The position numbers and the translations under genes are program-made. A DNA stretch of 64,000 nucleotides from Phycisphaerae bacterium. Lineage in GTDB: Bacteria > Planctomycetota > Phycisphaerae > Phycisphaerales > UBA1924. The notes under the pieces were generated by a model. That model was not told the DNA's origin. It was given only the letters and a program-made list of their open reading frames with translations, and made no database searches. Of this stretch, positions 15,835 to 29,939 are shown piece after piece. Location: contig JAUILU010000003.1 in NCBI GenBank assembly GCA_030432905.1, positions 62,001-126,000 of the forward strand. The letters are read 5' to 3'. Every line of letters begins with the position of its first letter. Position 1 is the first letter of the stretch.

Positions 15835-17712
15835 ATGAAAGGCTTAGTTATGAAAAAGGAAGTGGCACTCATAATTGCATCTGGAACGATCTCGGCCTCA
15901 GCACAAGAGGCTGTCACGGTAACGACGCTTTACGATGTGTCAGATTCGCCGCTGGCGACGGTACTGCCGCAGGACCTGCCCGGACCGGATGGTGTGGTCT
16001 CGTTCCGCGAAGCGGTCGCGGCGACGAACAACGCTGCCGGACCACAAACGGTGACATTCGCGATTCCGGAGTCTGAGTGGTGGCTTCTTGATGATGTAGC
16101 CCTGCTTGAGCTTGTCGACGGGCCGTTCCTCATCACGGACGACCACACCACGCTCGACTTCTCATCCCAGACAGACTTCACCGGCGACACCAATCCCAAC
16201 GGCGGCGAAGTCGGGATCTACGGCCTGCAGGTCAACGGCTGGGGACACCCGGCGATCTTTATCTACGCCAGTCACACGACTGTCAAAGGCCTCGGGCCGG
16301 TCTACCAACGCCGGCTCTCGGTGACCGTTCAGGACGGCAACTTCAACCGCTTCATTGGCAACACCACCGACGGGATCGAACTCGACCCGTACCCCGGCAC
16401 GACCATGGGCAACATCATCGGAGGCACCGAAGAAGGCGAGGGCAACTCGCTCGGTTCCGTCGAGATCCTCTGCGGCGCCAACGACAACATTGTCGTTGGC
16501 AACACAATCCGCGAGGTCAACGTCGTGGGCAGCCGGTACTGCGAAGAAGGAAACGAGTACCCGACGAACAACCGCATCGGCGGGCCAACTCCCGAGGAGC
16601 GCAACGTCATCAACGGGTTCGGCAGGAGGAGCGGCGAAGGCTTCCCGTCGGGCGAGGGCGTGCTGGTGACCTACGCAAAGGACACGCTCGTCGAAGGCAA
16701 CTACATCGGCGTGACAGCGGACGGGATGAGCAGGGTCAATCAGATCGGAACTTCTGGCGTGCGTGTCTACGACGCGTTCGACACCATGATCCGCGGCAAC
16801 CTCATCTCAGGGATCAGAGCACTTGGGTCCAACCACTCAGCAGGGCAGATCTTCGGACAAGCGATTGCGGTCGGATCGATCAACGCTGACACGTATCGTA
16901 CGACCATCCAGGGCAACCTCATCGGTACCGACGCGACGGGTCAGAACCCTATTCAGACCCGCAGCGGCATCGTCGTTGCCCCTTCGACCGGACTCTACAC
17001 CGTCCACGACACGGTCATCGGCGGCACAAACGAGGGCGAAGCGAACACCATCGCCTACACCGAGGTGCGAGGCGTGACAGTCTCGGCACTTGTGGACACG
17101 GCAACGATTCTCGGTAACAGCATATTCGGCAACGTCGGGCTTGGGATCGATCTTTACAAGATCGGGCTGGGTGAAAGCGGTGTCACGCCGAACGACCCGG
17201 GCGATGCAGACTCAGGCGGCAACGGGCTTCAGAACTACCCCGAGATCAACAGCGTTGTGGCGTCGGGTTCGACGATGACCGTGTCGGGCACCTTCAACAG
17301 CATGCCGAATCAAGACTATCGGCTTGAGTTCTTCGCAAGCACGGAGTGCGATCAGAGCGGCTTCGGTGAGGGCGAATGGTTTGTCGGTGCGATCGAGGTA
17401 ACGACAGACACCAACGGTGATGCACCATTTGACGCAGTCGTCGATATGGCCCCGAATGGGATGGGGTTTGTCACCGCGACCGCCACTGATCTGGCTGCAA
17501 ACGCGACCAGTGAGTTCTCAGCGTGCTTTGGCATGGCTACGACCACTTGCGTCGTAGACGTCAACGGTGACGGCCAACTTACGCCCACCGACTTTACCGC
17601 TTGGATCACAGCATTCAACAACAAAGATTCGCGTTGCGACCAGAACGACGACGGCAACTGCACGCCGACGGACTTCAATGCGTGGATTAACAATTACAAT
17701 GACGGCTGCTGA
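15835..17712 (+). CDS. Secreted parallel beta-helix repeat protein with dockerin-like module
   Basis: Repeated 'N.I.GN.I' strands (e.g. 'TTIQGNLIGTDATGQNPIQTRSGIVV'); C-terminus CVVDVNGDGQLTPTDFTAWI...NDGC. Confidence 0.8.
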   Translation: MKGLVMKKEVALIIASGTISASAQEAVTVTTLYDVSDSPLATVLPQDLPGPDGVVSFREAVAATNNAAGPQTVTFAIPESEWWLLDDVALLELVDGPFLITDDHTTLDFSSQTDFTGDTNPNGGEVGIYGLQVNGWGHPAIFIYASHTTVKGLGPVYQRRLSVTVQDGNFNRFIGNTTDGIELDPYPGTTMGNIIGGTEEGEGNSLGSVEILCGANDNIVVGNTIREVNVVGSRYCEEGNEYPTNNRIGGPTPEERNVINGFGRRSGEGFPSGEGVLVTYAKDTLVEGNYIGVTADGMSRVNQIGTSGVRVYDAFDTMIRGNLISGIRALGSNHSAGQIFGQAIAVGSINADTYRTTIQGNLIGTDATGQNPIQTRSGIVVAPSTGLYTVHDTVIGGTNEGEANTIAYTEVRGVTVSALVDTATILGNSIFGNVGLGIDLYKIGLGESGVTPNDPGDADSGGNGLQNYPEINSVVASGSTMTVSGTFNSMPNQDYRLEFFASTECDQSGFGEGEWFVGAIEVTTDTNGDAPFDAVVDMAPNGMGFVTATATDLAANATSEFSACFGMATTTCVVDVNGDGQLTPTDFTAWITAFNNKDSRCDQNDDGNCTPTDFNAWINNYNDGC

Positions 17713-17738
17713 TGCAACCGAGTTCAGGGAGAATTGAA

Positions 17739-19808
17739 ATGCATCTGAACAAAAAACTCGCACTAGCAGCCCTCCTGCTCGGCTGCGGCTCGGCAACTTG
17801 CCAGGAGTACACGCAGCAGAGCCCGTCGCCCACGGATATGCACCTGACCGCGATCGAGTTCGTGAACAGCGATTCTGGATGGGTCACTGCATCCTGGGCC
17901 AACAGTGGCGGTCTCTTTGAAACCGCAGATGCCGGCCAGAGCTGGGACACGGTCTTGATCCGAGAAGTGGAACGGTTCGATGCCCTCGACATGATCGATG
18001 GCAGCACCGGATATGCAGCAGGCGACGCGCTGTACAAAACAACAGACGGCTGGCAGACATGGACCCGCACAGAACTCCCGGCAGCACCGCAAGGCACACA
18101 TACGGGTGTATCGTCCATGCAGTTCGTCGATGCGAATACAGGCTGGCTCTCGACACGTCCGAGCGGCGCACAGAGCTACCTCTACAGCACGATCGACGGC
18201 GGAGCGAACTGGACCTACCTCGGCACGTTCGAGCTCGACTCCTGGAAATTCAACGACGCGTCCGTTGGCTGGGCGGCATTGCTCGACCACTCCTTCGTGC
18301 GCACCAACGACGGCGGACTGTCTTGGACACCTGTTCAGATGCCCGCCTCGATCACAACCTCGAGCAATGTCATCGAGGTCTTCTCGTACGACGAGGCAAT
18401 CGTCACCACCTTCCAGGATGCAGAGACTCGGTACAGTATGCACAAAACTACCGACGGCGGAGCGAACTGGGATTCGTCGCTTCCGGGCGTGCCTCGCGAT
18501 GCTGAGTTCACGGACCAGATGAATGGATACGGGTTCGAGCAGTTCGGGACATACTCCAGCTCGACCGACGGCGGGATGACTTGGACCGAGGACACAGAAG
18601 CCGAGATCGGGCATGAGAAGTTCACATGCGTTTCAGTGCTCGGAGACAGTGTCTATCTCGGTGGTGAGTACGGGTACATCACCGCCTCTGCAGACAACGG
18701 AGCGACCTGGAGCCAGATCTCGAAAGGGTCGGGTCAGGATCTGCGGCGGGTCGGGTTCGCCGATTCGCAGCACGGCTGGGTGACCGGTGACGGCACCATC
18801 CTCGGCACTACCGACGGCGGCGAAACATGGAATCACCTCCCTGGCCCGGTGCTGACCAACTTCTTCCAATTGTTCCATTCAGGACCTGCGGATGTCTGGC
18901 CTTTCAGCGCGACCGATGTCGCCATCCGATGGAACAGCGTCAACCTGATCCGGACCACCGACGGCGGGCAGTCGTGGACGCTCGAAGACCCTGACGACAT
19001 TTGGCCCGACGGCAGGATCTACTTGCTCGATTCCGACACCTACTTCAAGTACGACCCAGCGGGAAGGCGGATTCACAAGTCGACCGATGCGGGGCAGACT
19101 TGGACGGCGGGCCCAGCCACCGTGCCGCCGCTTGACGCGGGCGACACGATTCTGGACTTCTACTTCTACGACGAGATGAACGGCTGGATCATCGGCAGCC
19201 CGATCATCGCGTTCCACACACAGGACGGCGGGCAGACCTGGACAGAGACCGCCCAGATCATCCGCCTTCCCAGTCCTGTCTACAGGCGCGTCCGGTTCGT
19301 CACCCCAGACATCGGATGGATGGTCGGAAGTTACGGCTTGATCCTCCGCACAACCAATGGCGGTGACACGTGGGTCGAACAGACTCAGCCTGATACTTTC
19401 GATGATACAAATGTCGATCTCGTAGTCGTCAGTGAGACCGAAGCATACCTCGCCGGCGTAAGCGACGGACAGAGCATGGTGAAACGAACCACTGATGCGG
19501 GCACCACATGGATCGAACAGTACACACCTACATTCGGCGCTCACGGAAACGCTACCGCCAACAACGGGCTCGCGGTTGTCGATGGGAACGTCTGGACATC
19601 AGGGATCTTCGGTTCGATCTTGCACGGCCAAGCTTCTGGCGATTGCCTCGCAGACGTCAACAATGACGGCACGCTCTCGCCGACCGACTTCACCGCATGG
19701 ATCGCGGCGTTCAACTCAAACGCACCCGGCTGCGATCAGAACGGCGACGGGAGTTGCACACCCACAGACTTCACCGCCTGGGTTGCCAATTTCAACGCCG
19801 GTTGTTAG
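17739..19808 (+). CDS. Secreted YCF48/BNR-like beta-propeller protein with dockerin-like module
   Basis: Repeated 'TTDGGQSWT/STDAGQTWT' Asp-box motifs; start with upstream AGGGAGA; C-terminus CLADVNNDGTLSPTDFTAWI...NAGC. Confidence 0.8.
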   Translation: MHLNKKLALAALLLGCGSATCQEYTQQSPSPTDMHLTAIEFVNSDSGWVTASWANSGGLFETADAGQSWDTVLIREVERFDALDMIDGSTGYAAGDALYKTTDGWQTWTRTELPAAPQGTHTGVSSMQFVDANTGWLSTRPSGAQSYLYSTIDGGANWTYLGTFELDSWKFNDASVGWAALLDHSFVRTNDGGLSWTPVQMPASITTSSNVIEVFSYDEAIVTTFQDAETRYSMHKTTDGGANWDSSLPGVPRDAEFTDQMNGYGFEQFGTYSSSTDGGMTWTEDTEAEIGHEKFTCVSVLGDSVYLGGEYGYITASADNGATWSQISKGSGQDLRRVGFADSQHGWVTGDGTILGTTDGGETWNHLPGPVLTNFFQLFHSGPADVWPFSATDVAIRWNSVNLIRTTDGGQSWTLEDPDDIWPDGRIYLLDSDTYFKYDPAGRRIHKSTDAGQTWTAGPATVPPLDAGDTILDFYFYDEMNGWIIGSPIIAFHTQDGGQTWTETAQIIRLPSPVYRRVRFVTPDIGWMVGSYGLILRTTNGGDTWVEQTQPDTFDDTNVDLVVVSETEAYLAGVSDGQSMVKRTTDAGTTWIEQYTPTFGAHGNATANNGLAVVDGNVWTSGIFGSILHGQASGDCLADVNNDGTLSPTDFTAWIAAFNSNAPGCDQNGDGSCTPTDFTAWVANFNAGC

Positions 19809-19834
19809 GTAGTCTGCATAAGAAGCTAGTACAA

Positions 19835-19857
19835 AAAGCCGAGGATTCTCGGCTTTT
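19835..19857 (+). terminator. Intrinsic terminator
   Basis: AAAGCCGAG-GATT-CTCGGCTTTT. Confidence 0.8.
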
Positions 19858-19955
19858 CTTGTATCCATAGTTTAGGAATGAATCTCCTAAACGTGAATGA
19901 CAAACCTCCACCGGCATTCAGCCGTTGGCAACCACATCACAGATTGGAGATTCAG

Positions 19956-21242
19956 ATGACACGGATTTCGATGACTCGCGGAGCGATCGCAACTACGACA
20001 ATGATGCTTGCCGGACTGGCCGCAGCACAGCCCACGTTCCAGGCCGCTGCACCCGTGCCGACCGGGCATCGCCCCGGTGGTGTCGAATTCGGCGACTTTG
20101 ACGGCGACACCATGATCGACATGGTCTACTCCAACGATGTCCCCGACAGCGTTTCAATCCGCTTCGGAACAGGCGCCGGATTGTTTGGTGCAGCTGTCAA
20201 CTTCCCAACCGGTGCCAACACGGGCCCAGATTCCTTTGCGATCGCGGACTTCGATCAGGACTTGGATCTAGATGTCGCGGTGGTATTGAAGAACATCAAC
20301 ACCGTCGCAATCCTGACCAACAACGCCGGCACGCTCAGCCTCGCAGGCCAGTTCGCTGTAGGTGCCGATCCTCGCCGGATCCATGCCGCAGATATTGACG
20401 GCGATGGCGACGCAGACCTGTTGACCTCGAACCGTGACAGCAACACCGTCAGCGTGCTCACAAACACAGCCGGCTCGTTTAATGTCACCTCCACCCTGGC
20501 GGCTGGTGATCGACCGGTCGCTGCGATCGGAGCGGACCTTGATGGTGACGGCGATATGGAAGTCGTTGCGTCGAACAACCGCGGGCGAGCCGTCATGGTC
20601 TTCACGAACACCGGCGCTGGCTTTGCAGCACCTGTGAGCATCGGTGTTGGCCCCATTGTCCGACCGGAGGGGCTCGATGCTGCCGACCTTGACGGCGATG
20701 GCGATGAGGATGTCATCGTTGCTCTCTCCGACGACGGCGTCGGCTTCGTAGGCGTGATGACCAATCAGGGCGGCGCTCTCTCCGCACCGATCAGCACGAA
20801 CAGCGGCGGTGTCAACACAGACAGCGTCACGGCCGGTGATCTCGACGGCGACGGCGACCTCGATGTCGCGGCGACGAATCAGGACTCCAACAACATCGGC
20901 ATCCTGGTCAACAACGCGGGCAGCCTGTCACTCTCGAGCACGCTGGTGGCGGGCACACGACCCGAGCGGATCGTCCGAGCCGATGTGAACGGCGACAACC
21001 TGCCGGACCTCGCGACCGCCAACCGCGACAGCAACACCATCTCGATCTTCGAGAACACCACGGTTGGCAACAATGACTGCCTCGCAGATGTCAACGGTGA
21101 TGGTGTACTCAGCCCGACCGACTTCACGGCATGGATCGACGCGTTTAACAACACATCGCCCGAATGTGACCAGAACGGAGACGGGAACTGCAACCCGACC
21201 GACTTTACAGCTTGGATCGCGAACTACAACGCCGGCTGCTAG
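19956..21242 (+). CDS. Secreted FG-GAP/VCBS repeat protein with dockerin-like module
   Basis: Repeated 'ADLDGDGDxDVVAxN' Ca-binding-type repeats; ATG at 19956 with signal peptide; C-terminus CLADVNGDGVLSPTDFTAWI...NAGC. Confidence 0.85.
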   Translation: MTRISMTRGAIATTTMMLAGLAAAQPTFQAAAPVPTGHRPGGVEFGDFDGDTMIDMVYSNDVPDSVSIRFGTGAGLFGAAVNFPTGANTGPDSFAIADFDQDLDLDVAVVLKNINTVAILTNNAGTLSLAGQFAVGADPRRIHAADIDGDGDADLLTSNRDSNTVSVLTNTAGSFNVTSTLAAGDRPVAAIGADLDGDGDMEVVASNNRGRAVMVFTNTGAGFAAPVSIGVGPIVRPEGLDAADLDGDGDEDVIVALSDDGVGFVGVMTNQGGALSAPISTNSGGVNTDSVTAGDLDGDGDLDVAATNQDSNNIGILVNNAGSLSLSSTLVAGTRPERIVRADVNGDNLPDLATANRDSNTISIFENTTVGNNDCLADVNGDGVLSPTDFTAWIDAFNNTSPECDQNGDGNCNPTDFTAWIANYNAGC

Positions 21243-21679: not shown

Positions 21680-22867
21680 CTAGTAAATCGGTGTAAACGG
21701 CAGAATGATCGAAACGGTAATTAAGATAATGATGACCCACTCTAAAACTTCGAGTCGTTTGGTCGCGGTCGAGTCTGACATTTTGCCGTAGAGGCTCTCT
21801 GTGACCTCGAGCTTTCGCTGCACGCTCGCCTGCCAGGCCGGGAGATCGAGGCGGTTGGCCGACACGCGGTAGAGCCGGGCGAGATACTGGTTGCCGAGCA
21901 ACTTAATGGCGTTGTTCACACCCTCGAACATCACTGCGGCATCGGTCTGCACGGACGCGAACCGCCGGAGCATCCGGCTTGATGCGAACGCGGGCCAGAA
22001 CCGCGCCTTTGTCAACGCCGAGAGCGTTTCGTCTGCGTGGTCCAGGATCTCGTCGAGTTCCTGGTCGAGCACACGGAGTTCGAGCAGCTCGATGTTCGCG
22101 TGCTGGAGCACGGACACAACATCGTCAGGCTCGGCGTCGAAGAGGACCGCCGCGTTCCAATCGACGACAGCGAGGTCGTTCTCGGTGTAGGCGATGGTCG
22201 ATTCGGTGGTCCGTTCGATCTGACCACGAGATAGCCCGACGCGCTCGGCTTCGATCGCTTGGGCGATGACGGCGCGGTGCGTGTCGAGCAGGGAAGTCGG
22301 GGAACCGCCATCCCACGAGGTGATGGCGAAGACGGCGTAGTCCTCGACGGCATCCGAGAGCTTCGGGCGTTCGACCGCGGGCTTGATGGCCTCGAGCACG
22401 CGAGCAACGCGCTGGCGCGCATCGGCCTCGAGGTCGGCGTGCTCGTAGAGCGCGGCGCCGAGTTCTGGAAGGCCGGACAGGTTGCTCGGCAACGGCATGC
22501 GGTACGTCAGCAACGCGGCGCCAAAGTCGTAGATCAAAACCTCAACAGGGCCATCTGTCACAGCGCTACCGACCTTGACGGATTCGCCCTCGGCGATGAG
22601 CCTGATCGGTGGCGGGCTGTAGTCGAACCAGACCGGCGCGGGCCGGCGTGACCGGACAACCTTGTGGCGGGTTGCTTCGCGCACGAGCGGCTGGGCCGAG
22701 TCGAGGTCGATCTGGAAACCGATGTCGAAAGCGAAGAAGGCCAGAGCGTGGCCGGAGATCTGGACGGTCGTTGGGTCAGCGGACACAGACATGGCGAGTG
22801 ACTCCACAGTCAGAGCTGGCAACTGACCGGCCATCAGACCGGTCAAGATTGCCGCCATGATTATCAC
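21680..22867 (-). CDS. RMD1/DUF155-like membrane-anchored protein
   Basis: C-terminal 'RLEVLEWVIIILITVSIILPF' and central 'ENDLAVVDWNAAVLFDAEPDDVVSVLQHANIELLELRVLDQELD' resemble the DUF155 family. Confidence 0.6.
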   Translation of the reverse strand: MIIMAAILTGLMAGQLPALTVESLAMSVSADPTTVQISGHALAFFAFDIGFQIDLDSAQPLVREATRHKVVRSRRPAPVWFDYSPPPIRLIAEGESVKVGSAVTDGPVEVLIYDFGAALLTYRMPLPSNLSGLPELGAALYEHADLEADARQRVARVLEAIKPAVERPKLSDAVEDYAVFAITSWDGGSPTSLLDTHRAVIAQAIEAERVGLSRGQIERTTESTIAYTENDLAVVDWNAAVLFDAEPDDVVSVLQHANIELLELRVLDQELDEILDHADETLSALTKARFWPAFASSRMLRRFASVQTDAAVMFEGVNNAIKLLGNQYLARLYRVSANRLDLPAWQASVQRKLEVTESLYGKMSDSTATKRLEVLEWVIIILITVSIILPFTPIY

Positions 22868-22959
22868 ATCGTTGAGCCAGCTTGTTCACTGCCGGGCACT
22901 CTCTGATCTATAATTTATTTGAGGCGGCCAGGCCGTGACCGCACTCTTCGAGGTGGCCC

Positions 22960-23787
22960 ATGGTCAAGAAGTCCCCGGAGCCCAGCCGCGGCTCCGCATC
23001 CCCGAGTTCGACACACCGCCCGCCGGTCGCCGGGGGCGTTCTTCCGCTGAGCATCCTTCCCCAACCGACCGACGAGACCTGCGGGCCCACGTGCCTGCAC
23101 GCGGTGTACCGGTACTGGGGTGAGAGCGACTCGCTCGAGGAGGTCATCGACTCTGCGCGTTCGCTCAACATCACAGGCGCAGGCCGCGGCACGCTCGCGG
23201 TCATGCTCGGCGTGCACGCTCTGACCAAGGGCTACCGGGCAAGCCTGTACACCTTCAACCTGAACGTATTCGACCCGACGTGGTTCGATGAGGACGGCGA
23301 GGCCGAGCCCGGCGAACTGTCAGACAAACTGCAGCAGCAGCTGGCAGCCAAGCGGGATGCCGACCCGCGGTTTGGTGTTGCGACCGAGTCGTACATCGAG
23401 TTTCTCAGGCTCGGAGGCACCATCCGCTTGAAGGACCTGACGAGCCGACTCATCTCCGGGTTTATTCGACGGGGCGTGCCGGTGTTGACGGGCTTGAGTT
23501 CGACGTATCTGTACCGCTGTGCACGCGAGTTTGGGCCGAACGATGACTACGACGACGTCCGCGGCGACCCGAGCGGGCACTTTGTCGTCCTGCACGGGTA
23601 TGACTCTAAATCGAGGAGTGTTTCGATCGCGGACCCGCTCGAGAACAACCCGGGATTCGAGACCCAGCAGTACAGCGTCTCGATGGGTCGGCTCGTTCCC
23701 GCGATCATGCTGGGCGTGCTGACGTACGACGCCAACTTGCTGGTGATCGAGCCTGCGGACGCGAGCCGCGGCGGAGACAGACCATGA
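22960..23787 (+). CDS. C39-like/papain-fold cysteine peptidase
   Basis: 'LPQPTDETCGPTCLHAVYRYWG' (Cys) and 'GHFVVLHGYDSKSRSVSIADPLENNPG' (His/Asp). Confidence 0.75.
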   Translation: MVKKSPEPSRGSASPSSTHRPPVAGGVLPLSILPQPTDETCGPTCLHAVYRYWGESDSLEEVIDSARSLNITGAGRGTLAVMLGVHALTKGYRASLYTFNLNVFDPTWFDEDGEAEPGELSDKLQQQLAAKRDADPRFGVATESYIEFLRLGGTIRLKDLTSRLISGFIRRGVPVLTGLSSTYLYRCAREFGPNDDYDDVRGDPSGHFVVLHGYDSKSRSVSIADPLENNPGFETQQYSVSMGRLVPAIMLGVLTYDANLLVIEPADASRGGDRP

Positions 23788-25229
23788 AGCCGATTCTTGT
23801 CGTGGATTCACCCAAGCGTTGGCCTCTGGCGATCCCGGGGACCGAGCTGGTTTCTTCGTACCAATACTTGTCTGATGAAACGCTCGCGGAGGGCGCGGGC
23901 CGGAAGGTGTTCAACCTCTGCCGATCGTTCAAGTACCAAGCCGCGGGCTACTACGTCTCGCTGCTCGCCGAGGCACGCGGACACAGGCCCCTGCCTTCGG
24001 TCAGCTCGATCCAGGACCTCCGGCTTGCCCCCGTAGTCAAGCTGGTGTCCGAGGACCTCGACGAGTTGATCCAGAAATCGCTCTCGCGTGTGAAGGCGGA
24101 TGGGTTCGATCTCAGCATCTACTTCGGGCACAACCTCGCGACCAGCCACGACCGACTCGCGACAGCGATCTTCAACGCGTTCCCCGCGCCCCTCCTGCGC
24201 GCACGGTTCGAGAGGAACGGCTCCTGGAAGCTGACCGCGGTCCGGGTCATCGGGCTGGGTGAGGTTCCAGAGTCGCACCACGACTTTCTGGTCGGACAGG
24301 CCGAGCGGTACCTCAGGCGTGCGCCGCGCAAAGCCAAAGCGGCGCCTGCGACACGTTTCGATCTTGCGATCTTGCACGACCCGGACGACCCGATGCCCCC
24401 ATCGAACGCGGAGGCGTTGCAGCGGTTCGTTGATGCCGCGGAAGAGACGGGTATCGCCTGTGACCTAGTCCGCAAAGACGCCTATGGCAGGATCGCCGAG
24501 TACGACGCGTTGTTTATCCGCGAAACGACGTACGTGAATCACCACACGTACCGCATCGCACGCCGCGCCGAGGCAGAGGGCATGGTCGTCATCGACGACC
24601 CTCGGTCGATCGTGCGATGCACGAACAAGGTCTACCTCGCCGAGACCATGGCAAGGCACCGCGTCGCGACACCCAGAACGCTTGTGCTGACTAAGGACAA
24701 CGCGCTCGATGGCCTGCGAACGCTCGGCTTCCCATGCGTTCTGAAAAGGCCCGACAGCTCGTTTTCCAGCGGCGTCGCCCGGTGCGATGCCGAGCAGGAC
24801 GCGGCGGGGATGCTCGCCTCTTTCTTTGAGCACAGCGACCTGCTCGTTGCACAGGAGTACGTGCCGACGGACTTTGACTGGCGGATCGGTGTGCTCGGCG
24901 GGGAGGCGTTGTTCGCCTGCCGATACGGGATGGCGCCCGAGCACTGGCAGATCGTCAAACGCGACGACGATGGTGTGCACGAGGGCGACGCGGAGACCAT
25001 GCTTATCAGCGATGCCCCGGCGGACGTTGTGAAGCTGGCGACGCGCGCCGCGAACCTGATCGGCGACGGGCTCTACGGCGTGGACCTCAAGGTCGTACGC
25101 GGGAAGCCTGTCGTGATCGAGATCAACGACAACCCGAACCTCGACGCTGGCGTTGAGGACGAAGCACTCGGCGACGAGCTGTACCGCCGGATCATGCGGC
25201 ACTTTTTCTGGAAACTCGAATCGAGATGA
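23784..25229 (+). CDS. RimK-type ATP-grasp ligase with N-terminal RLAN-like domain
   Basis: 'GRKVFNLCRSFKYQAAGYYVSLLAEARGHRPLPS' N-terminal domain; ATP-grasp 'GFPCVLKRPDSSFSSGV', 'GVDLKVVRGKPVVIEINDNPNLDAGVED'; ATGA overlap with the upstream gene. Confidence 0.85.
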   Translation: MKPILVVDSPKRWPLAIPGTELVSSYQYLSDETLAEGAGRKVFNLCRSFKYQAAGYYVSLLAEARGHRPLPSVSSIQDLRLAPVVKLVSEDLDELIQKSLSRVKADGFDLSIYFGHNLATSHDRLATAIFNAFPAPLLRARFERNGSWKLTAVRVIGLGEVPESHHDFLVGQAERYLRRAPRKAKAAPATRFDLAILHDPDDPMPPSNAEALQRFVDAAEETGIACDLVRKDAYGRIAEYDALFIRETTYVNHHTYRIARRAEAEGMVVIDDPRSIVRCTNKVYLAETMARHRVATPRTLVLTKDNALDGLRTLGFPCVLKRPDSSFSSGVARCDAEQDAAGMLASFFEHSDLLVAQEYVPTDFDWRIGVLGGEALFACRYGMAPEHWQIVKRDDDGVHEGDAETMLISDAPADVVKLATRAANLIGDGLYGVDLKVVRGKPVVIEINDNPNLDAGVEDEALGDELYRRIMRHFFWKLESR

Positions 25230-26488
25230 CCAACGAACCAACCAACTGGACGTACCCACTGGGCCTCTTTGACGCCTTCGGCATCGAGCTGGAGTACATG
25301 ATCGTGGACCGAGACACGCTCGATGTGCGCCCGATCTGTGACGAGCTCTTTCGCAAGGCGAACGGCTCGGACACTTCAGACGTCGAGCCCGACGGGCCCG
25401 AGGGCACCGTTTCATGGTCGAACGAGCTTGCGCTGCATGTGGTCGAACTGAAAACACAACGACCCGTGCCATCGATCGATGGGCTCGCGGACTCGTTTCA
25501 GGAGCACGTCCGCAGGATCGATGCGCTGCTGGAACCGATGAACGCGCGGCTACTACCCACCGCGATGCACCCGTGGATGGACCCGAACACCCAGACGAAG
25601 CTCTGGCCCCACGAGTACAACGAGATCTACCGCACGTATGACCGGATCTTCGGGTGCAAGGGTCACGGCTGGGGGAATCTCCAGAGCACGCACATCAACT
25701 TACCGTTCGCCAACGACGAAGAGTTCGGGAGGCTCCATGCCGCTCTGCGACTGGTGCTGCCTCTGCTCCCGGCGTTGGCGGCGAGTTCACCGATCGTCAA
25801 CGGTGATTGGTCGCCGATCTCCTGCCACCGGATGGAGGTCTACCGGACCAACTCCAAGCGAGTGCCCATGATGACGGGGCTCGTGGTGCCCGAGCCTGTG
25901 TTTACACGGGCGGCGTACGAGCGAGAGATACTTGGGAAGCTGTACGACGACCTGAAGCCGCTGGACCCGGAGGGCGTGCTGCGCCATGAATTCGCCAACG
26001 CACGCGGCGCGATGGCGCGATTCGACCGGGGTGCGATCGAGATCCGCGTGCTTGATATCCAGGAATGCCCCAAGGCCGACCTCGCGATCGCGGCGCTGAT
26101 TACCGAGGTTGTCCGTGCGGTCGTCGGCGAGCGATGGATGGGCTACGAGGACCAGAAGCTCGTCAAGACCGAGCCCCTGCACGGCGTGCTGCTGGACACG
26201 ATCCGGTACGCGGACCGCACACGGATACGCGAACGGGCTGTCCTCGATGCGTTCGGCGTGAAGCAGAGCATGGTCTGGGCGGCGGATCTTTGGGGTTCGC
26301 TTCTAGAACAGGTCATGCCCGATCATCCGACCTGGTCGCCGATGCTGCGCCGGATGATCAAGACGGGCACACTGGCAAACCGCATCGGGCAGCAGGTCAG
26401 GCGGTTCCCGAACAGAACGGAGTTGCAGGCTGTGTACGGCGAACTCGCCGAGTGTCTGCACAACGGGGAGTTGTACCGTGTCCCCTGA
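25226..26488 (+). CDS. GCS2-type glutamate-cysteine ligase-like carboxylate-amine ligase
   Basis: 'GLFDAFGIELEYMIVDRDTLDVRPI', 'NLQSTHINLPFANDEEFGRLHAALRLVLPLLPALAASSPIVNG'; ATGA overlap with the upstream gene. Confidence 0.8.
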   Translation: MTNEPTNWTYPLGLFDAFGIELEYMIVDRDTLDVRPICDELFRKANGSDTSDVEPDGPEGTVSWSNELALHVVELKTQRPVPSIDGLADSFQEHVRRIDALLEPMNARLLPTAMHPWMDPNTQTKLWPHEYNEIYRTYDRIFGCKGHGWGNLQSTHINLPFANDEEFGRLHAALRLVLPLLPALAASSPIVNGDWSPISCHRMEVYRTNSKRVPMMTGLVVPEPVFTRAAYEREILGKLYDDLKPLDPEGVLRHEFANARGAMARFDRGAIEIRVLDIQECPKADLAIAALITEVVRAVVGERWMGYEDQKLVKTEPLHGVLLDTIRYADRTRIRERAVLDAFGVKQSMVWAADLWGSLLEQVMPDHPTWSPMLRRMIKTGTLANRIGQQVRRFPNRTELQAVYGELAECLHNGELYRVP

Positions 26489-27200
26489 GTCCGCCAGCGG
26501 GCTGCCGGGCTTCATTCTGCTGACCTGCGAGCACGGCGGCCGGGACGTGCCGGATTCATACAAGAGCCTGTTCCGTGGGCAGAAAGAGGTTCTCGACAGC
26601 CACCGGGGCTACGACATCGGTGCCCTTGGCGTCGCGCTGCGGATGGCGTCCCGCCTCGCGGTGCCGATCATTTTCTCGACTGTGACGCGTCTGCTGGTTG
26701 ACCTGAACCGTTCTGACAACGCAGCCGACGTCTTCAGCGAGTTCACGAGGGGCCTTGCCGCTGATGAGCGTGAACGGATCCTCGCGACTCACTACAGACC
26801 CCACCGAGAGCGTGTGGAGCAGTTGGTCACGGCGGCGATCGCATCTGGACATCGCGTGCTTCACCTCGGCGTTCACTCATGCACCGATGAGCTGAACGGA
26901 AACGTGCGAGACCTCGATATCTCGCTGCTGTTTGATGAGGCACGGGGCCTTGAAGCAGAGCTTTGCGATCGGTTCCGGGCGGCGCTCCAGCGGGAAGCAG
27001 GCGGATTGCGGTACCCATTCAACGAGCCGTACCGGGGTGCTGACGATGGACTGACAACGACATTGCGGTCGCGGTTTGCGCCGGAGGAGTATCTGGGGAT
27101 TGAGATCGAGGTTCGGCAGGGCATGGTTCGCAGGGCCGCCGAGCAGAAAGCAGTCGGCGATCTTTTGGCGGTCTCGCTTCGAACCGGGCTAGGCGGCTAA
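26478..27200 (+). CDS. N-formylglutamate amidohydrolase-like protein
   Basis: 'LLTCEHGGRDVP', 'LDSHRGYDIGALGVALRMASRL', 'TVTRLLVDLNRS', 'LGVHSCTDELNG'; GTG start overlapping the upstream gene. Confidence 0.8.
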   Translation: MSPESASGLPGFILLTCEHGGRDVPDSYKSLFRGQKEVLDSHRGYDIGALGVALRMASRLAVPIIFSTVTRLLVDLNRSDNAADVFSEFTRGLAADERERILATHYRPHRERVEQLVTAAIASGHRVLHLGVHSCTDELNGNVRDLDISLLFDEARGLEAELCDRFRAALQREAGGLRYPFNEPYRGADDGLTTTLRSRFAPEEYLGIEIEVRQGMVRRAAEQKAVGDLLAVSLRTGLGG

Positions 27201-27228
27201 TCTCCCGGAGAACGCTGGAGGACCACGG

Positions 27229-27969
27229 ATGCCACAGTCTTCGGCACCTGCCGACCGTCTGTACTTTGGATTCAAGCCCGGGCGAGAGCTCGGCGGCAAG
27301 TACGTCATCGAAGGCCTGCTCGGACGGGGCTGGGAGGGCGAGGTCTACCGCGTCGTCGAGAACCGGACGGGTGCGCTCCGCGCTGCGAAGGTGTTCTTCC
27401 CCCAACGAAACAACAACGACCGCGCGGTCAATTTCTACGCCAAGAAGCTCGAGCGGCTCCGCTCATGCCCGATTGTGATCAAGTACCACCACGCCGAGAC
27501 GATCCATCGGCGCGACGAACCGGTGACGGTGCTGATCAGTGAGTACGTCGAGGGCGAGATCCTCGACGACCTCATCCGCCGGGGCCGGGGCAAGCGGCTG
27601 CCGGACTACGAAGCCCTGCGGATCTTCTACGAGCTCGTGGTCGGTTTGGAGAGCATCCACGCCGAGCGTGAGTACCACGGCGATCTGCACACCGGCAACC
27701 TGCTCGTCCAGCGGCGGGGTGTGCACTTCGACGTCAAACTCGTTGACCTTTTCGACCACGGCAGACCCTCGAAAGCAAACGCCCAGTTCGACCTGATGTG
27801 CTCGATCAGACTGCTCTACGACATGCTCGGCGGGCAGAAGAGGTACAGCGCCCTGAGGCCAGAGTTAAAATGGATCATGGGCGGGCTTCGGCAGTCGCTC
27901 GTCCTGAAACGATTCCCGACCGCGGCCAAGCTTCGCACGCACCTAGAACGTTTCGAGTGGCAGCGATAA
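27229..27969 (+). CDS. Ser/Thr protein kinase-like protein
   Basis: Gly-rich loop 'LLGRGWEGEVYRV', 'AAKVFF', catalytic 'YHGDLHTGNLLV', 'VKLVDLFDHG'. Confidence 0.75.
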   Translation: MPQSSAPADRLYFGFKPGRELGGKYVIEGLLGRGWEGEVYRVVENRTGALRAAKVFFPQRNNNDRAVNFYAKKLERLRSCPIVIKYHHAETIHRRDEPVTVLISEYVEGEILDDLIRRGRGKRLPDYEALRIFYELVVGLESIHAEREYHGDLHTGNLLVQRRGVHFDVKLVDLFDHGRPSKANAQFDLMCSIRLLYDMLGGQKRYSALRPELKWIMGGLRQSLVLKRFPTAAKLRTHLERFEWQR

Positions 27970-27975
27970 CTCCGG

Positions 27976-28815
27976 CTAGTCGCCTCGTCTGATTGTCGGG
28001 CGGTACATCGCGATCGAGAGATCGTCTGGATGGCCTGTCGGCGAATCTGTCATCGCTCGGCTCGTAAGATCGACCAGCTTGCCCAGAGCCTGCGCCGCGT
28101 TCCCGACTCTGCACGCTGATGAGATCTGGTCGAGTGTGAGGTTGTCTGAGAGCCCGTCGGACGCGACGAGAACGGTGTCCATCGGACGGAGATCGACCGG
28201 CGGGCCGACGTGGACGAACATCTCGGGGAAGCCGAGCACGTTGAGGACGACGCCGCTGTCTTCGTGCGCCTGAGCCTCAGAGGCGTTGATGAGCCCTGCC
28301 TCGACGCCGAAGCCAACGAGCGAGTGCGGGAGCGTCGCAAACCTGATGGCCCCGCGTTGGCCGACGACAACCGAGGGCGAATCGCCCGCATGGAAGACTC
28401 TTGCGACGCCTTCGCTGATGAGCACCGCGGTCAGTGTTGAGCCGGCACCGACGCGTAGATCGGCTACCGCTTCGTTGGCGCGGTCAAACCCCGCGAGGAC
28501 CGCAGACGTGAGGTCTGCATCGCCCGCTTCATCGATCGAGGCAGCCAGGGCTTCGACGGCGGCAGCCGACGCTCGATCGCCCGCGGGCATCCCGCCGCAA
28601 CCGTCGGCGACCGCGAGTAGCACCCCTTCAGACCCCGCTGGCATCACGAGCACTGCGTCTTCGTTGGTCTCAGGTCTGGCTGGGGAGGACACCGAGGTTG
28701 CAGCCAGCGCCGCGTGCTCGTAACGACGGAGCACCTTGTCCCCTCCACCTGAGTGTACGAAAGGCTGCGTCAAACTCTCGGGCGGGTTCGCCATCGGACA
28801 GATTGTCTCCAGCAA
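27976..28815 (-). CDS. PP2C-family protein phosphatase
   Basis: 'RPETNEDAVLVMPAG', 'LLAVADGCGGMPAGDRASAAAVE', 'DTVLVASDGLSDNL'. Confidence 0.85.
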   Translation of the reverse strand: MLETICPMANPPESLTQPFVHSGGGDKVLRRYEHAALAATSVSSPARPETNEDAVLVMPAGSEGVLLAVADGCGGMPAGDRASAAAVEALAASIDEAGDADLTSAVLAGFDRANEAVADLRVGAGSTLTAVLISEGVARVFHAGDSPSVVVGQRGAIRFATLPHSLVGFGVEAGLINASEAQAHEDSGVVLNVLGFPEMFVHVGPPVDLRPMDTVLVASDGLSDNLTLDQISSACRVGNAAQALGKLVDLTSRAMTDSPTGHPDDLSIAMYRPTIRRGD

Positions 28816-28967
28816 GGCAGGGGTGAAACCTGCTCAGGTAGTCTATTCTCAAGTTCGCATGGACACTCCCTGTGCGGTTCATTGGGAGGTCGGCGTTGAT
28901 TTTGGCCTATGTGGCGACAAGAGATCGGTGACAGGCGGCTCACCCAGAGCCTGAGGATGGGGCAAGC

Positions 28968-29939
28968 ATGACTATTCGGGCATTCATCGACGAGCACTTC
29001 CGTCACTTTAACGCCGCGGCTCTCCGCGACGCCGCGATCGCCTTCGAGGAGTGCATCGACTCGGAAGGGCAGATGCTGATCACGCTCGCCGGCGCGATGA
29101 GCACGGGCGAGCTCGGCCGCTCTCTCGCCGAGATGATCCGCCAGGACAAGGTCCACGCGATCTGCTGCACCGGCGCCAACCTAGAGGAAGACTTGTTCAA
29201 CCTCGTCGCACACACGCAGTACCGACGAGTCCCCCACTACCGGGACCTGACGCCCGACGAGGAGCAGGCTTTGCTCGATGAAGGGCTCGCTCGCGTGACC
29301 GACACCTGCATCCCGGAAGAAGCAGCGATCAGGAAAATAGAGCGCCACCTCATCCCCCTTTGGAAGCAAGCCGACACGGACGGCAAGCGTCACCTGCCCC
29401 ATGAGTATCTCTACCAGCTCATCCGATCCGGCACACTCGAACCGGAATACGAGGCGGACCCGGCCAACTCGTGGCTGCTGGAAGCCTGCGCCAAGAACCT
29501 GCCGATCTTTGTGCCGGGCTGGGAAGACTCAACTCTGGGCAACATCTTCACCGCACGCGTGCTCGACGGCACGCTCTCGTCCACCGACCCAGTCCTGCCC
29601 GGCACCGAGTACATGCGCTCGATCGCGGGCTGGTACCGCGAGCGCGCCGGCGACCCGCGTGCACCCGGCTTCTTCCAGATCGGCGGCGGTATCGCGGGCG
29701 ACTTCCCGATCTGCGTTGTCCCCATGCTGCTCTACGACCTGAAAGAAGATATCCCGCTCTGGTCGTACTTCTGCCAGATCAGCGACAGCACCACCAGCTA
29801 CGGCTCATACTCCGGTGCTGAGCCGAACGAGAAAATCACGTGGGGCAAACTGGGCCGTGAAACCCCGCGGTTCATCGTCGAATCCGACGCGACCATCGTT
29901 GCGCCGCTGATCTTTGGCTACATCCTGGGCGCCGAGTGA
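28968..29939 (+). CDS. Deoxyhypusine synthase-family protein
   Basis: 'MLITLAGAMSTGELGRSLAEMI', 'ICCTGANLEEDLFNLV', 'SYGSYSGAEPNEKITWGKLG' (retains the Lys of the WGK active-site motif). Confidence 0.8.
   Translation: MTIRAFIDEHFRHFNAAALRDAAIAFEECIDSEGQMLITLAGAMSTGELGRSLAEMIRQDKVHAICCTGANLEEDLFNLVAHTQYRRVPHYRDLTPDEEQALLDEGLARVTDTCIPEEAAIRKIERHLIPLWKQADTDGKRHLPHEYLYQLIRSGTLEPEYEADPANSWLLEACAKNLPIFVPGWEDSTLGNIFTARVLDGTLSSTDPVLPGTEYMRSIAGWYRERAGDPRAPGFFQIGGGIAGDFPICVVPMLLYDLKEDIPLWSYFCQISDSTTSYGSYSGAEPNEKITWGKLGRETPRFIVESDATIVAPLIFGYILGAE

Follow-up and report, generated by a model that had tools for sequence, protein, structure and literature searches.

A four-gene cassette of two amide-forming ligases and two hydrolases in a Phycisphaerae bacterium as a candidate pathway for a small peptide-like metabolite

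The window analysed here is a 64,000-nt stretch of DNA from a Phycisphaerae bacterium (GCA_030432905.1, contig JAUILU010000003.1, positions 62,001-126,000, forward strand), in which the genes at 22960-27200 form one operon encoding a papain-like C39-type cysteine hydrolase, an ATP-grasp ligase with an RLAN domain and a RimK-type part (RLAN-RimK), a GCS2-family carboxylate-amine ligase and a metallohydrolase of the FGase (N-formylglutamate amidohydrolase) family. We estimate at roughly one half the probability that this cassette is a cytosolic non-ribosomal pathway for a small, probably γ-glutamyl-type, peptide-like metabolite. Its two ATP-dependent ligases are of the glutathione class, are sometimes fused to each other and are accompanied by no precursor peptide, and thus fit the two-step synthesis of a small peptide. 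Recurrence of the gene order in other genomes far exceeds chance, and all four proteins keep near-invariant active-site residues.

Organization of the cassette and its four enzymes

Genes in high-GC DNA were called with a codon model. The first-pass annotation had described five co-directional open reading frames (ORFs) on the + strand at 22960-27969, assigned to the C39, RLAN-RimK, GCS2, FGase and kinase families. All five were recovered at these positions, each family call was confirmed by Pfam and the overlaps were exact, with ATGA at 23784-23787 and 25226-25229 and 11 nt (GTGTCCCCTGA) at 26478-26488. As to the extent of the cluster, the four genes at 22960-27200 constitute the conserved unit and the kinase does not belong to it as a fifth member. 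A consensus scan of 22700-29100 returned two promoter-like matches, both in the 92-bp divergent gap, one on each strand.

22885-22914, + strand: candidate promoter-like site (TTCACT-18-TATAAT, 10/12 consensus) in the 92-bp divergent gap 5' of the operon
22960-23787, + strand: papain-like C39-type cysteine hydrolase, 275 aa; Pfam PF13529 (Peptidase_C39_2)
23784-25229, + strand: RLAN plus RimK/LysX/ArgX-type ATP-grasp ligase, 481 aa; Pfam RLAN, RimK
25226-26488, + strand: GCS2-family carboxylate-amine ligase, 420 aa; Pfam GCS2
26478-27200, + strand: FGase-family metallohydrolase, 240 aa, GTG start; Pfam FGase

The RLAN-RimK protein combines an RLAN domain (residues ~27-169; PF14401, E=7e-45, 152.7 bits against a gathering cutoff of 25) with a RimK/LysX/ArgX-type ATP-grasp part (~195-455; Pfam RimK, E=6e-7, 29.8 bits, cutoff 21), and it scored below the curated cutoff of the RimK subfamily TIGR00768 (alpha-L-glutamate ligase; 77.2 against 143.4 bits). 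Residues D434, E446 and N448 occupy the usual ATP-grasp metal positions, in columns invariant among 66 homologues. In an AlphaFold2 model (predicted local distance difference test, pLDDT, 88; predicted TM-score, pTM, 0.65) only the C-terminal half matched the RimK, ArgX and LysX structures, with which it shares the fold and the D-E-N metal-site pattern; profile comparison also matched RimK/LysX chains. The window enzyme differs from these in its additional RLAN domain, for which there was no structural match of its own among the matches listed, and its conserved HWQI loop is unlike the RimK loop in alignments and nearer to the HWI of LysX. This enzyme would form one of the amide bonds, via an acyl phosphate.

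The GCS2 protein matched PF04107 (E=6e-26, 91.8 bits against a gathering cutoff of 21), with E21, E23 and an E272/R274 motif near-invariant in columns conserved in 43-71 homologues. Residue 200 is Cys in the window and Asp in all other 70 aligned homologues, and may represent a sequencing error or a substitution that could alter activity. Scores remained below the NCBIfam cutoffs for glutamate-cysteine ligases and YbdK (best 57.7 against 332 bits; gshA_cyan_rel 53.9 against 176) and the YbdK structure 1r8g was reached by the GCS2 profile only at E=3e-4; by profile score, the window GCS2 is a subfamily remote from YbdK and GshA. A genome search found it to be the sole GCS2 or glutamate-cysteine-ligase-like enzyme and found no proteobacterial-type GshA (PF04262). 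GCS2 would form the other amide bond, probably a γ-glutamyl amide, and the two ligases would then follow the two-step logic of glutathione synthesis, with its GCS-type and ATP-grasp enzymes (compare the fused GshF).

The first hydrolase matched Peptidase_C39_2 (E=7e-10, 40.1 bits, cutoff 24), carries no ABC transporter fusion in the window and has Q35, C41, H207 and D225 at the papain-type active-site positions, near-invariant in 66 homologues. Foldseek matched its AlphaFold2 model (pLDDT 92) to the pseudomurein endoisopeptidase PeiR, to PCAT C39 domains and to the phytochelatin synthase Alr0975, at TM-scores of about 0.4-0.5. The model resembles the form of Alr0975 bearing a glutathione acyl intermediate, but sequence identity to Alr0975 is about 10%, the best sequence family is Peptidase_C39_2, and other C39 and isopeptidase folds matched equally well or better. 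Like phytochelatin synthase and glutathionylspermidine amidase, the protein is a papain-like Cys-His-Asp hydrolase, here paired with peptide-forming ligases, and its enzyme class suggests action on a γ-glutamyl or isopeptide-type amide. The second hydrolase matched FGase (PF05013, E=1e-23, 85.1 bits against a gathering cutoff of 28.9), had no second family member in the genome search and retains the conserved residues E18, H19, H42, D46, R71, N77, R78, H129, H133, E209 and E211; the nearest relative with a solved structure, Atu2144 (2odf), bears the label hypothetical. Again by enzyme class, it would act on an N-acyl-glutamate-type amide, the kind that RimK-type enzymes create. Less certainly than the ligase roles, the two hydrolases might oppose or finish the ligase steps, trimming or recycling the product.

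The single GCS2 of this genome, its lack of a proteobacterial-type GshA, the correspondence of the two ligase classes to GshA and GshB, and the likeness of the C39 model to Alr0975 would also suit a pathway for glutathione or another low-molecular-weight thiol, in which GCS2 makes γ-Glu-Cys, RLAN-RimK replaces GshB and C39 acts like phytochelatin synthase. However, GCS2 is far from known γ-glutamylcysteine ligases (NCBIfam scores far below cutoffs; PDB profile E about 1e-3), the RLAN protein matches RimK/LysX and not glutathione synthetase, and a GSH-S_ATP domain match lies elsewhere in the genome. Some carriers of the cassette, namely Nitrosomonas and Legionella, make glutathione with other enzymes, which also counts against a thiol pathway, and we regard this explanation as improbable.

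Conservation, fusion and loss of the cassette

A collection-wide genome scan with the RLAN alignment yielded 80 RLAN loci, and neighbours were examined by profile in 105 loci. The complete order C39>RLAN>GCS2>FGase was found in 36 of the 80, C39+RLAN+GCS2 in 22 and RLAN+GCS2 in nine, the remainder containing RLAN+GCS2+FGase (two), C39+RLAN (two) or RLAN without the other three (nine). Relatives of the window genome also keep the four-gene order, and spacing is tight there as well as in the 80 loci, so that the expectation that these genes are conserved together was borne out by both the relatives and the wider scan. Apart from the four genes, almost no neighbour recurs across RLAN loci. FGase occurred only with GCS2 (38/38 FGase loci among the 80), which would suit an enzyme acting late or in an accessory role.

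This gene content bears on whether the locus might instead be a degradative or salvage operon, in which the hydrolases would split amides to release amino acids and the ligases would be secondary. FGase relatives are known in histidine degradation and the cassette does hold two hydrolases, but the ligases are the constant part of the loci, RLAN occurs without hydrolases and the reverse only in one genome (G010), and catabolic genes do not accompany the cassette. A salvage role is, in our judgement, highly doubtful.

RLAN (PF14401) was detected in 25/61 relatives and in 53/199 genomes sampled from the phylum but was absent from all four genus-mates of the window genome (4/4), which marks the cassette as an accessory trait. 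Four-gene sets are present in at least nine phyla (Planctomycetota, Pseudomonadota, Thermodesulfobacteriota, Nitrospirota, Bacteroidota, Ignavibacteriota, Balneolota, Spirochaetota and Omnitrophota), with many carriers being metagenome bins whose individual phylum labels may be wrong, and shorter sets were found in further phyla. Cultured carriers of the full set are three Pontibacter species, Marivirga sericea and Thiobacillus thioparus, and the annotation of a Legionella plasmid record lists consecutively RimK, a glutamate-cysteine ligase family protein and an N-formylglutamate amidohydrolase. The phyla are interleaved on the RLAN tree, in which many inner branches have weak support, and this interleaving points to horizontal transfer.

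Coupling between the genes was evident in several forms. Among the 61 relatives, 22 had both C39 and RLAN, three RLAN only, one C39 only and 35 neither (Fisher p=2e-12, kinship ignored). Four genomes of distant Planctomycetota encode RLAN-RimK and GCS2 as a single fused ORF of 974-1022 aa (L126:4387-7455, L127:4053-7058, L128:2391-5357 and L129:5751-8675); C39 lies 5' of the fusion at two of the four loci and FGase 3' at one. In three loci of family f17 (L132, L133 and L134), two separate adjacent genes encode RLAN and the RimK-type ATP-grasp part. Genome G015 retains of the cassette only an FGase remnant adjoining the divergent gene that lies 5' of the cassette (L147:6683-6916), comprising the last 77 residues and 66% identical to the window's FGase, which indicates that the cassette was deleted en bloc. 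One well-supported clade, made up of Nevskiaceae and a small number of other carriers, is nested among the cassette RLANs; in it a GNAT acyltransferase lies directly 3' of RLAN, and in six GNAT-RLAN genomes the cassette C39 and GCS2 were both not found. Locus L131 carries a GNAT-RLAN fusion, and in Azospirillum a GNAT-DUF3335 (C39-like) fusion lies 5' of RLAN; one acylating partner may have been swapped for another.

None of 2406 small ORFs tested beside the cassette was conserved in more than three loci, which argues against a ribosomal precursor peptide; with no conserved precursor-peptide ORF beside the ATP-grasp ligase, a cluster for a ribosomally synthesized and post-translationally modified peptide (RiPP), including graspetides, was rejected.

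The first-pass annotation had proposed a system for either peptide tagging or a peptide metabolite. The link between ligases and hydrolases on which this was founded is strengthened by the conserved order, the co-occurrence and the RLAN-GCS2 fusion, and of its two halves the metabolite appears to be the better one. For tagging, RLAN-RimK would attach an amino acid, glutamate or a different one, at the C-terminus or on a side chain of a protein, in the manner of RimK acting on S6, GCS2 would extend or cap the tag and C39 and FGase would remove it. The catalytic half of the RLAN protein is structurally closest to RimK and ArgX/LysX, all with protein substrates, the additional RLAN domain could bind a protein, and two ligases with two hydrolases suit a cycle of making and removing. 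Yet neither the operon nor its surroundings hold a conserved gene for a target protein or a tag, mobility of the cassette across phyla is easier to reconcile with a self-contained pathway than with one that depends on a host protein, and the RLAN-GCS2 fusion resembles GshF. We therefore hold tagging to be unlikely.

Several observations weigh against the proposed γ-glutamyl-type metabolite pathway itself. Substrate specificity is not readable from sequence, and the ligase and hydrolase roles are predicted ones. The structural matches of C39 denote a broad fold class. About half of the loci have no FGase, which would then be dispensable or supplied otherwise. The correlation between distances of the partner proteins, which speaks for coupling (r 0.49-0.69, above all permutations; 0.13-0.56 for distant pairs alone), is in part a reflection of common organism history. 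A diffusible product is a presumption, a major facilitator superfamily (MFS) transporter lying beside the cassette in five loci only. Lastly, G010 retains a lone C39 with intact active-site residues beside the divergent gene (L146:5968-6891), with RLAN, GCS2 and FGase not adjoining.

Genes next to the cassette

The neighbouring features in the window are as follows.

21680-22867, - strand: divergent 395-aa protein without a Pfam family; optional neighbour
27229-27969, + strand: short Ser/Thr kinase-like protein, 246 aa (Pkinase); neighbour, judged outside the cassette
27976-28815, - strand: PP2C phosphatase, convergent with the kinase (Pfam PP2C_2; NCBIfam Stp1-like, below cutoff); neighbour, outside the cassette
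28968-29939: deoxyhypusine/homospermidine-synthase-like protein, below all NCBIfam cutoffs

The kinase (Pkinase, E=4e-16) starts 28 bp past the FGase stop and had been proposed to add a regulatory layer to the cluster. This was not upheld, as no homologue was found by profile beside the core genes in the 105 loci and the gene is missing behind FGase in the close relative L034. There, FGase is followed directly by a deoxyhypusine-synthase-like gene 80% identical to that of the window, kinase and PP2C being absent, whereas in the window this gene comes 3' of the kinase/PP2C pair. No other relative examined has kinase and PP2C beside the cassette, and we judge that the pair either was inserted locally or is unrelated to the cassette, with loss in L034 as the alternative. 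The two genes (27229-28815) converge with only a few bases between them and may be an antagonistic pair. The fused cassette of L129 has as neighbours a canonical RimK carrying a TrkA_C domain and a Ser/Thr kinase of 695 aa (L129:1362-4670); this upstream kinase is different from that of the window, to which it is a weak match only. Among PADLOC models, none of the four core proteins had a match (0/4) and the kinase matched only generic, defence-linked kinase models; an anti-phage defence system was rejected, the core proteins having no PADLOC match.

With the deoxyhypusine/homospermidine-synthase-like gene lying a short way downstream of the cassette in the window and immediately 3' of FGase in L034, a system resembling glutathionylspermidine metabolism could be envisaged, in which a peptide-polyamine amide is formed by an ATP-grasp synthetase and cleaved by a papain-like amidase, the class pairing of ATP-dependent ligase and papain-like amidase being identical to that of GspSA. 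That gene adjoins the cassette in one close relative only, though, RLAN-RimK falls outside the GspS family, and C39 and CHAP are distinct papain-like groups, making such a system very unlikely.

The divergent gene is a common though optional companion of the cassette in this order of Planctomycetota, adjoining C39 in roughly half the relatives, but many genomes that lack RLAN carry it as well. It encodes a conserved family with a C-terminal hydrophobic segment and no Pfam match; a guess from the C-terminus that it is RMD1/DUF155 was rejected, as DUF155 gave no match. The MFS transporter was likewise rejected as a constant partner, since beyond the five adjoining loci the family is common and mostly located elsewhere in the same genomes. 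Further upstream in the window (17712-21242), two secreted-looking proteins share a DVNxDGxxxPTDFTAWIxxFN-type C-terminal tail.

Relation to known systems and significance

A close parallel to the cassette is glutathione biosynthesis (GshA and GshB; fused GshF), since both employ a GCS-type and an ATP-grasp ligase, sometimes in a single chain; the cassette differs in that its two ligases belong to GCS2 and ATP-grasp subfamilies far removed from GshA and GshB and in the addition of the C39 and FGase hydrolases. Iyer, Abhiman, Burroughs and Aravind reportedly predicted in 2009 RimK-family amidoligase clusters with RLAN (PF14401), GCS2, papain-like and GNAT neighbours. PMC4431377 and PMC10318531 cite the 2009 study for linked ATP-grasp, COOH-NH2 ligase and GNAT neighbourhoods, among them fusions of GNAT with papain-like DUF3335 domains. 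The predicted clusters and the cassette share protein families and the principle of linked amidoligases and peptidases, and the window locus appears to belong to this kind of cluster, its functions likewise assigned by prediction. The present data document the FGase partner, the fusion of RLAN with GCS2, the scar left by en-bloc deletion and the spread over phyla. No experimental characterization of such a cassette was found in the library searched for literature on RLAN, RimK+GCS2, NFGase and DUF3335.

A wider and more tentative extension of the metabolite reading would have RLAN-RimK and GCS2 make a widely shared, horizontally moving γ-glutamyl-type peptide, a "second glutathione" in logic and not in structure, matured or recycled by C39 and FGase, with GCS2 and C39 exchanged for a GNAT acyltransferase in some lineages to give an acyl-capped version. 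The natural RLAN-GCS2 fusions (L126-L129) are good candidates for biochemistry, and the cultured non-model hosts with the full set put the product within experimental reach. That the same order is kept across at least nine phyla, with transfer and occasional fusion, suggests that the product is presumably useful to the bacteria that carry the cassette.

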